A DNA stretch of 64,000 nucleotides from Linnemannia hyalina (taxonomy: Eukaryota; Mortierellomycota; Mortierellomycetes; Mortierellales; Mortierellaceae), in NCBI GenBank assembly GCA_019671135.1, contig JAHRHY010000005.1:1054001-1118000 (forward strand). The letters are read 5' to 3'. A program made the translations under genes and the position numbers. Positions 12,011 to 18,185 of this stretch are shown here, piece by piece. Under the pieces are notes generated by a model. It had not been told where the DNA came from. It ran no database searches and saw nothing but the letters and a program-made list of their open reading frames with translations. Within the stretch, counting starts at the first letter, position 1; every line of letters begins with the position of its first letter.

Positions 12011-14583
12011 ATGATGCTCTACAAACTGGTCGTTCTCGGAGTAAGTGTCCATCTATTCACCCAGACTGGACCTCTTTTTCTTGACACCACTTCTGTGCCA
12101 TCTTATTTTGTGTTCATAAACAATGCAAGCTAACAATCTCTAATTTTCTAATGGTCTATTCGCCACTACCATAGGATGGAGGTGTCGGCAAGGTACACAA
12201 CATCAACAATAACTATGGCAGCAGGACATACTTTGGAGAATGACTACATATCCCGCCGATATGCGAACGAACAACAATGTCTACACAGGAGCAACAACTG
12301 CGGATAACTAACCAGCTTTCCATTTGTTTTGCCTCCCATATCCCTTGCCCGCCCCAACCTACCTTTCTTTCTGAACTTCACCCCCTTTTACCGTCCCCGT
12401 GTCCCCTTTTCCTCATCTCGCCCCATCGACACATCCGTCGAATCTTTTAACGGTCGATCCGTCACGTCGCCCCATCGTCATACGACCCCGCTCCAACAAA
12501 ACAACAACCACAACAATCACACCAACCACTCGCCTCTGTCATCATCTCCAACACGAATGGACAAAACTCTAGACTGCATTGACCATCCAGGCAAGTACTC
12601 AACAACGTGAAAATACGAACACAGGACGGGTTAATCGATATGAGAAACTAGATAGCACTGAGGATGTACTCCTGGAGAACTACCACGGTGTTGCAGAAAG
12701 AAGCGGAACTCGTTTTTCTCCTCTGTGTCTTCGTTTGTTCCCACCCTCCCCAGATAGACAAGCTTGTTCGTTTCGCAAACAACCTCCGAACCCACCCACC
12801 ATTTTCCCAATTGTCCCGCTATCGCTCGCTATTACATTTTCCCCGTGTACACATCAGAGTACATTGCAATGGGAGCCAACTAGGCCAATGGTTTTTTTCC
12901 TTCTTTTCCTCTCTCTTTCTCTCTTTCTCTCTTTCTCTCTTTCTCTCTTTCTCTCTTCATACGATTGTGGATATCGCAGGGGTGGAAAACAAACATCTTC
13001 TCATTTGTTCCTTTTGTACCCTCATGCGCGACCATGCTTGTGCCACGAGTCTGGCCCCTTGCAGCCAGCCAAAAAAAAAAAAGGCGGACCTTGTTCGCGT
13101 CCCTTGAATTTTTTGCCCTTCACGGTTGTGGGGTTGAGACAGAGCCAAGGTGGAGGAAGTCAACATACATGCCGCAATACACCAATTCAAACGCCAACAC
13201 CTTTTAACACTGTACTAACTGTTGTCATCATTCATCCTTATTGTCCTTTCTTCATCACCATTCTTGTCAATAGTTGTGCTTAAACCACTTTGTTGGTATG
13301 TGCTTGAAGCTAGTGCTCGTCTGGTTCATTTTTGTGTCGTTGGCATTTTTTTGTTTGGTCTGAGCAGAGTGCTCACATCCCACCTTTTAGGTTCTCAGCC
13401 AAAAGGCCGCGAAACAACAAAAAACTCCTTCACACCAGACTGGGCGCCTCCACCCTTTGGGTGTGGGTGTCAGTTTGTGAAGGGGAAAAAGAGGGCTTTT
13501 ATTGTTGTTGTTCTAGACAAGGACGTGGCATTGTCGGTGACAAATACGAAAATCCAAGCGTGCTCACCATTCCTTCTTTCTCTTTTTTTTATTTTTTTTC
13601 CGTTTTTTAATTTCTCCCTTGGCGTACTGTAAACGTTATCGATGGACACTTTCATTTTGTACTACAACAGAGGTAAGGGACCATTGCTGTGATACCATTG
13701 ACTCGTTCATTTCATGGGTGGGGTGAGCGAGAGGGGTTTAATATTATGAGAGATCTCAACTTTGATAATAACATTCCCTTTTGCCTCGCTCTCATACTTT
13801 CATCGTCGGTATTTTCCTTGCCTACTTTAGACATACGATCCTACCATTGAAGACTCTTACAGAAAGCAGGTCGTCATTGATGACCAGTCCTGCGTCTTGG
13901 AGGTCCTTGATACTGCCGGTCAGGAAGAATACACCGCTTTGAGAGACCAATGGATCCGGTACGCGTTAGCTTCATTTTCTATTCTCTGTTGATGTTCCTT
14001 GTTATTTATGCAGGTCCCATCGGACTTTTTGCCATTCTTACGTCTGCAGTCCTTTGAGGATGCTTGGATTCATTTTTTGGGGGAACTATATGCGTGTGTG
14101 TGTGTATATGAGAGAGAGAGAGACGAAGGTTTCCAATGCACTTCGTTGAACCAAAAAGCTCTCATTTTATTGATCCTGACTGACCGTATTTTTCGACTTT
14201 ACCTTGATATCTCATCACCCCGTCATCCTCAATTGAATAGCGATGGAGAAGGATTCCTGTTGGTGTACTCGATCGCTGCCCGTTCAACATTCGACAGGAT
14301 AAGACGATTCCGTGACCAGATTGTGCGAGTCAAGGATTCGGATAATGTGCCATTGATGCTTGTCGGCAACAAGTGCGACAAGTTGGCCGAGCGCGAGGTC
14401 ACCCGTGACGAAGGAGCGTTGATGGCCAAGTCGTTGCGTTGCGAGTTTACGGAAACATCAGCCAAGACCTGTGTCAATGTCGAGCGGTCGTTTTATAATG
14501 TCGTCCGGATGATCCGTCAGGCCCGTGATGGTGGGGCCCCCCAGCCTAGGCAACCTAAAAAGAAGGTCTGCGCTATCCTGTAA
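12011..14583 (+). CDS. RasB-like small GTPase with micro-exons
   Basis: Seven coding exons: 12011..12040, 12175..12192, 12573..12590, 13274..13295, 13671..13672, 13831..13958 and 14241..14583, giving 186 residues. The P-loop GDGGVGKTALT, switch [14 protein letters not shown], switch [17 protein letters not shown] and ETSAK are intact. The C-terminus is polybasic (KKK) and ends in the CAAX box CAIL, predicting prenylation and membrane anchoring. The FVETYDPT switch I wording matches the Aspergillus RasB class rather than canonical Ras1. These GTPases regulate polarity and hyphal growth. The third intron (12591..13273) begins GC in a perfect CAG/GCAAGT context. The conserved Glu of FVETYD is encoded across three exons, with a 2-nt exon AG at 13671-13672 flanked by acaacag and gtaagg. 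No other AG in that intron interval has an acceptor before it and a GT after it. Confidence 0.9.
12909..12957 (+). repeat. CTCTTT-type pyrimidine repeat in Ras intron 3
   Basis: Tandem TTTCTCTC-like units inside the GC-AG intron, with no purines over about 50 bases. Confidence 0.8.

Positions 14584-15030: not shown

Positions 15031-18185
<3,155 letters not shown>

Follow-up and report, generated by a model that had tools for sequence, protein, structure and literature searches.

The Ras2 gene of Linnemannia hyalina probably contains an exon of only two nucleotides, which would rank with the smallest known. In the window, the whole stretch of 64,000 nucleotides that was analysed, the dinucleotide AG at positions 13671-13672 is read here as a constitutive Ras2 exon, included by two successive canonical splicings and supplying bases 2 and 3 of codon 30, the Glu of switch I (FV-E-TYDPT). 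We put the probability of this reading at about 0.92. A 2-nt exon had been proposed in a sequence-only reading of this DNA, and the proposal is supported by an AG exon kept amid diverged introns in a paralogue, by a transcript-sized contig whose protein (P0005) has Glu30 in frame, and by public gene models that fail at this codon.

Structure of the Ras2 gene and the AG site

The gene spans positions 12011 to 14583 (contig C44; genome size 51.5 Mb). Spliced alignment with the chytrid Ras2 protein P0025 as the query gave coding exons of 30, 18, 18, 22, 2, 128, and 340 nt:

12011..12040, plus strand: exon 1, 30 nt coding (spliced alignment, translation)
12175..12192, plus strand: exon 2, 18 nt, DGGVGK (spliced alignment)
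12573..12590, plus strand: exon 3, 18 nt, TALTIQ, followed by the GC donor CAG|GCAAGT (spliced alignment, splice matrix)
13274..13295, plus strand: exon 4, 22 nt, TTGTGCTTAAACCACTTTGTTG, coding LCLNHFV and base 1 of codon 30; phase-1 end, donor gtatgt
13296..13670, plus strand: predicted intron 4, 375 nt, gtatgt...acaacag
13671..13672, plus strand: predicted 2-nt exon AG, completing the Glu30 codon (bases 2 and 3); counterpart L009:2037-2038 in the paralogue
13673..13830, plus strand: predicted intron 5, 158 nt, gtaagg...ctactttag
13831..13958, plus strand: exon 6, 128 nt, TYDPTIEDS...DQWI plus CG; phase-0 start ACATACGAT after ctactttag
14241..14583, plus strand: exon 7, 340 nt (343 nt with the stop TAA), C-terminus ...KKKVCAIL (spliced alignment, translation)

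The product has 186 residues and ends in CAIL. The P-loop, switch I, G4/G5 motifs, and C-terminal CAAX, with their established roles in Ras-family GTPases, were all present in the translation and identify it as a Ras2-like GTPase. The best named match was the small G-protein Ras2 of Linnemannia elongata (P0001; 185/186 residues), and ras2 of Mortierella hygrophila (P0010, a truncated model) matched at 158 of 164 aligned positions. The protein scored 112.5 bits against TIGR00231 (cut-off 42.5) and matched the Ras protein 5wdr of the PDB with an E-value of 1.8e-63. In protein sequence it is like the filamentous-fungal Ras2-like GTPases (rasB / ras-2) as far as the available part of PMC8146680 describes them, and nothing differs there; the oddity is in the structure of the window gene. 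Exons 1-4 are tiny (30, 18, 18, and 22 nt) and are spread over about 1.3 kb (12011-13295), and the GC donor of intron 3 (CAG|GCAAGT) was found in both Ras2 copies of the genome.

The clash of phases lies at codon 30. Exon 4 ends in phase 1 at 13295 (GTT G|gtatgt), and the long exon that follows opens in phase 0 at 13831 (ctttag|ACA TAC GAT), exactly where the sequence-only reading had placed them. Both the sequence and the spliced alignment bear out its claim that two bases are missing here and that AG 13671-13672 completes Glu30 (GAG) of FVETYDPT. It had also pointed to a single AG in the interval with AG before it and GT after it, and indeed AGAGGT, coding Glu, occurs once in 13296-13830; the sole other AGNNGT is AGGGGT (exon position 13734), coding Gly.

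The AG, shorter than one codon, sits between a canonical acceptor and a canonical donor (acaacag|AG|gtaagg). These signals were scored with a splice-site matrix built from 64 modelled introns in 20 other loci of the same genome; some of these introns may be wrong, the source models having used hand-set weights and included several distant Rab/Rho-type genes. The donor at 13673 ranked first of the 38 GTs in the interval and stood at the 89th percentile among modelled donors; the acceptor before 13671 ranked second of 23 AGs, behind a stronger one at exon position 13391, and stood at the 38th percentile among modelled acceptors. The earlier description of both signals as near-perfect thus suits the donor and was generous for the acceptor. 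The modelled introns span 92 to 1,522 nt; the predicted introns 4 and 5 measure 375 and 158 nt. When the window interval was shuffled by dinucleotides, a 2-nt exon coding Glu, with sites at least as good, arose in 3 of 10,000 shuffles, and 5 of 10,000 matched the observed site strength if any two bases were allowed; scoring with the hand-set weights gave a fraction of 0.0002 in 5,000 shuffles, both for the window and for the paralogue L009. Other in-frame exons of up to 60 nt in the interval were considered and rejected (best score 1.5 vs. 7.7 in the window, -0.4 vs. 7.6 in L009).

The protein-to-DNA aligner was purpose-written and set no limit on exon length. With P0025 it picked AG 13671-13672 and L009:2037-2038, and four of four further queries (Rhizophagus, Mycosarcoma, Lithocolla, and Coemansia) picked the same sites; every query carries Glu30, and the alignment is thus biased toward finding it. 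The same aligner produced no exon shorter than 5 nt in 42 models (21 other Ras-superfamily loci, two queries each), and exon lengths revealed no intron pair inside codon 30 among these 21 loci, a set without L001 and L005. With the AG site masked, it forced a 5-nt exon in the window or a different 2-nt exon in L009, replacing Glu by Asp-Trp or Gly at a cost of 25 (window) and 15 (L009) units. Since a tiny exon is forced even then, the aligner carries less of the case than conservation and the strength of the sites do.

A second Ras2 copy, a transcript-sized contig, and the proposed splicing

A second Ras2 gene, L009, of which the sequence-only reading was unaware, lies on contig C33 of the same genome. 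Its exons measure 30, 18, 18, 22, 2, 128, and 343 nt by spliced alignment (the last without the stop codon), and its coding span is about 3.1 kb. The interval corresponding to the clash reads GTTG|gtaagc ... tgcctctaatag|AG|gtaagaat ... tttattag|ACATAT, with the 2-nt AG exon at L009:2037-2038 (ctaatag|AG|gtaaga), and AGAGGTAAG is common to both genes. By the splice matrix, the donor after the AG was the first of 26 and the acceptor the first of 43, and none of 10,000 dinucleotide shuffles reached the observed site strength.

The two copies diverged long ago. DNA identity was 83-100% over exons 1-6 (exon 7 left out), and 27 of the 64 four-fold sites compared within the first ~160 codons differ. 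In the introns, identity minus the shuffled-control mean (five shuffled sequences) was -0.02 to +0.06, and none of the six was clearly better than the control; the largest excess belonged to intron 5. Intron 4 of L009 has 248 nt and intron 5 has 446 nt, so that the larger of the pair is the opposite one to that in the window. The AG exon and its signals were kept while the introns diverged; the exon has therefore outlived the intron sequence around it, as selection for splicing predicts. As read from the DNA of the window gene and L009, the arrangement is conserved beyond one locus, and failed gene models suggest the same for other species.

The second copy bears on two other explanations. According to one, two bases were lost beside the acceptor by an assembly error or in a pseudogene, and AGAGGTAAG arose by chance. 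A 2-base loss would give the same mismatch; however, the mismatch and the AG unit are identical at two loci on different contigs, so that L009 contradicts this explanation, and public proteins match each product at 185/186 residues (P0001 for the window gene, P0005 for L009). We regard it as hardly credible. According to the other, a single GT-TT intron covers 13296-13828 (donor gtatgt, acceptor ...tactTT) and yields GTTG|AGACATAC, so that the ordinary acceptor's AG would stay in the mRNA; this is the same mRNA formed with no 2-nt exon. An AG precedes ACA in both copies, as a usual acceptor would, and the sequence alone permits such a junction. GT-TT introns are not known to form a class, and with such an intron it stays unexplained that in both diverged copies an acceptor, AG, and a donor stand together, the donor being the best in its interval. 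It is very unlikely.

A closer view of the message comes from P0005, the protein of a JGI cluster of 70 sequences whose longest contig has 1,093 nt. This product matches that of L009 at 185/186 residues and reads LCLNHFVETYDPT, that is, FVETYDPT with Glu30 in frame. Because the frame is uninterrupted in a contig of 1,093 nt and the L009 span is about 3.1 kb, P0005 should derive from spliced RNA (or from a retrocopy). It was judged to be a transcript by its size and source, is known from its protein, and is the counterpart of L009, not of the window gene. Judging by this contig of a very close relative, the mature message very probably contains the two bases of the Glu30 codon. A direct junction 13295/13831, with the frame mended later by editing or ribosomal frameshift, would be compatible with the phase mismatch taken alone. 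Against it, the in-frame Glu30 of P0005 indicates that the mRNA itself very probably has both bases, and the product of such a junction stops after six residues; we consider this explanation extremely improbable.

Conceptual translation showed what mis-splicing would cost. Skipping of the AG gives V-D-I-R-S-Y-H-stop in the window gene (a stop after six new residues) and V-D-I-stop in L009 (after two), so the exon is required for the reading frame in both copies. Retention of intron 4 or intron 5 likewise truncates Ras2, and among the spliced forms tried, inclusion alone yields a Ras with switch I. Since skipping the exon or retaining either intron leads to a truncated Ras, inclusion should be required for function.

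Under the proposed 2-nt exon, introns 4 (375 nt) and 5 (158 nt) would each be recognised as an intron and leave the RNA in succession. Two nucleotides would offer too little room for the factors of both splice sites to bind at the same time, hence stepwise splicing is the likely route. The last base of exon 4 is G, as is that of the acceptor, and for this reason the donor context GAG|gtaag would be unchanged by the upstream step: GAG|GTAAGG would read the same in raw and half-spliced RNA, with that step done or not. The unchanged context may help splicing in either order, and both orders are possible. From the sequence, a first splice at this ratchet-like site would rebuild GTTGAG|gtaagg. The sequence-only reading was correct that recursive splicing through the AG site leaves the same mRNA. 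Use of the site as a zero-length ratchet was rejected: it breaks the reading frame, and the best-scoring in-frame model keeps two coding nucleotides. Inclusion would produce the joint GTTGAGACATAC, and skipping is predicted to produce GTTGACATAC; the predicted half-spliced forms are GTTGAGGTAAGG and ACAACAGAGACATAC. A codon of the Ras effector switch would then hang on a two-nucleotide exon, and no functional Ras2 message could form unless two introns were spliced around an exon too small for exon definition.

Public Ras2-like proteins and the possible spread of the exon in fungi

Protein searches were performed with the window protein, P0092, and P0100, and the best 120 of 7,843, 7,965, and 7,982 matches, respectively, were taken. 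Pooling of these lists gave 148 distinct proteins, all of which were scored and sorted by hand by source: 111 ncbi entries, taken as genome annotation, 32 transcript-like entries (from sources other than ncbi, with a contig shorter than 2 kb or a transcriptome set as origin), and 5 others. The ncbi entries include a fish protein (P0021), a fern-labelled one (P0074), and Ascomycota.

In the pooled best-120 lists, insertions or deletions relative to the window protein at residues 29-31 were found in 44 of 111 ncbi entries (the fused protein P0008 counted among them), in one of 32 transcript-like entries (P0123), and in none of the 5 others. Junction 73-74 and four control sites had none in any group among these 148 listed matches. 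The 111 ncbi entries also had indels at junctions 22-23 (18), 16-17 (9), and 10-11 (3), all of which lie beside tiny exons. The queries P0092 and P0100 are themselves entries with VE deleted, and the count was therefore repeated on the list of the intact query, the window protein, alone (best 120 of 7,843). There, residues 29-31 carried indels in 37 of 90 ncbi, 0 of 26 transcript-sized, and 0 of 4 other entries; among the 90 ncbi entries, junction 73-74 and each of the four control sites had none, and junctions 22-23, 16-17, and 10-11 had 16, 7, and 1. Since junction 22-23, between tiny exons, also fails often, some of the annotation errors are explained simply by exons being small.

The same counts bear on the possibility that the AG exon is real but regulated, its skipping serving as an off switch through a truncated, decay-prone message. 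In both copies skipping does lead to a premature stop, the acceptor in the window has only average strength, and a microexon switch is described for Trichoderma in the available part of PMC11121469. On the other side, the motif is intact in 31 of 32 transcript-sized entries. We consider regulated skipping unlikely and constitutive inclusion the better reading.

Judged by motif, 50 of the 111 ncbi entries among the matches listed are not intact at codon 30 and 61 are intact, P0128, P0132, and P0140 included. The defects in these listed matches comprise deletion of Val-Glu or a near variant (14 entries), deletion of exon 4 plus the two bases (8), deletion of exons 3 and 4 plus the two bases (4), read-through as FVG (7) or FVD (2), and FVE or FIE followed by an insertion or other change (6); the remaining classes were varied. 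Val-Glu is lost, or intron residues stand in switch I, in P0002, P0007, P0035, P0036, P0044, P0048, P0100, P0148, and others. Gene models of related fungi are thus often wrong at codon 30. For Rhizophagus irregularis, two entries agree at 205/205 aligned residues and differ by the presence of VE. Transcript-sized JGI entries near the Piromyces protein have VE (P0086, 175/186; P0083, 171/187).

These classes differ in what they can say about a 2-nt exon elsewhere. A VE deletion is only partial proof: Val codons start with GT, and a GC donor after Glu30 could therefore mimic it. The eight-residue deletions (LCLNHFVE) were rejected as proof, a skipped 24-nt exon being also possible, and the six entries with FVE or FIE plus an insertion or other change fit a 2-nt exon that was extended as well as they fit one phase-0 intron. 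In six of the seven FVG read-throughs (5 species, Powellomyces twice), the protein continues with G-[K/E/R/M]-[C/S], readable as one of the donors G|GTAAGT, G|GTGAGT, G|GTAGGT, and G|GTATGT; the exception is P0006, which has GSP. The Linnemannia schmuckeri entry P0002 has the residues GMCLKLVL, and the window encodes exactly these letters when it is read on from the final base of exon 4 into intron 4. As judged from the protein sequences, it is only these read-through models (FVG plus residues of the GTRNGT or GTATGT type, 6/7 entries, 5 species) that point specifically to phase 1.

Read-through models expose a donor after base 1 of codon 30 in Powellomyces (Chytridiomycota), Thamnocephalis (Zoopagomycota), Calcarisporiella (Calcarisporiellomycota), Mucor, and Linnemannia. 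Deletions of Val-Glu occur in Batrachochytrium (Chytridiomycota), Violaceomyces (Basidiomycota), Martensiomyces (Kickxellomycota), Rhizophagus (Glomeromycota), and Piromyces (Neocallimastigomycota). No relative with genomic DNA was found in genome contigs or viral contigs, where peptide patterns across or beside exon junctions, which are weak tests, and then exon 6 only were used, or in plasmid sequences (exon 6 only); the spread beyond this genome therefore rests on proteins. This distribution inclines us somewhat toward the 2-nt exon in codon 30 of Ras2 being an ancestral feature of the fungal kingdom, although 61 of the 111 ncbi entries are intact and the deletions could be mimicked by a GC donor. 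If so, the exon has lasted since early fungi and would rank with the oldest sub-codon exons on record. The failed models would then represent a systematic annotation error in a core signalling gene, and many public Ras2 entries without Val-Glu or with intron residues in switch I would need correction. Ras2 could also serve as a test case for a gene-finder rule that covers exons of 1-2 nt.

Other small exons and comparison with known systems

Small exons were also modelled in other GTPase genes of the genome. L008, a Rab-type gene that we take by eye to be Rab1/Ypt1-like, has a predicted 8-nt exon (L008:1390-1397) flanked by ggatacag and gtaaga; it reads TGGGACAC and codes the start of WDTAGQ. 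In the similar locus L004, one exon of 228 nt stands in place of the 8 + 220 nt of L008. The Ras-like paralogues L027 and L028 have a common 12-nt exon covering codons 27-31, beside switch I (L027:1152-1163; L028:2047-2058 in reverse-complement coordinates). In the more distant small GTPase gene L010, an exon of 18 nt (L010:910-927) is placed like exon 3 of Ras2 (codons 17-22), and the intron pair flanking these codons may be common to both genes. In the window itself, an ORF lies at 15031-15270 on the minus strand; its end resembles an enolase C-terminus.

The literature searched, mostly without subscription papers, described no fungal ras gene with a 2-nt exon; one text match (PMC7725694) proved false. 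Exons below codon size have nevertheless been described. The comparison with the 1-nt exon of Arabidopsis APC11 drawn in the sequence-only reading was apt, and a second 1-nt case is now published for Fusarium CYP621A. In the available text on APC11 (Guo and Liu 2015, PMC4674806), the authors suggest combined intron-definition and recursive (stepwise) splicing, advance the same argument of factor crowding for the single nucleotide, and cite a potato 9-nt exon at which the second intron leaves first. A 1-nt exon is likewise described in plant VPS55 in the available part of PMC8831610. According to these texts, the APC11 and VPS55 exons, like that of Ras2, are sub-codon exons between canonical introns, essential for the frame and missed by annotation, and they are conserved across plant species; they differ in having one nucleotide instead of two, in belonging to plants, and in having been shown by RT-PCR or reads, whereas the Ras2 exon is predicted from sequence.

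For Fusarium, the accessible part of Nelson and Syed 2026 (PMC12940212) reports a 1-nt exon in the cytochrome P450 CYP621A backed by 18 reads. Both cases are fungal, and in both a phase clash within a conserved motif is solved by an ultra-small exon with a conserved AG..GT. The exon of CYP621A has 1 nt and, in that text, is confined to one genus and to a P450 described as rarely expressed; that of Ras2 would have 2 nt, belongs to a core signalling gene, is present in two copies, and has indirect signs across several phyla. Ratchet-point recursive splicing of Drosophila and human, as described in the sources available, is similar in that an acceptor lies beside a donor and a long interval is removed in two steps; at a ratchet point nothing stays behind in the mRNA, whereas the AG of Ras2 would leave two nucleotides, both coding. 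Sub-codon exons are thus a known kind, and it may be the possible great age of the Ras2 exon that is unusual.
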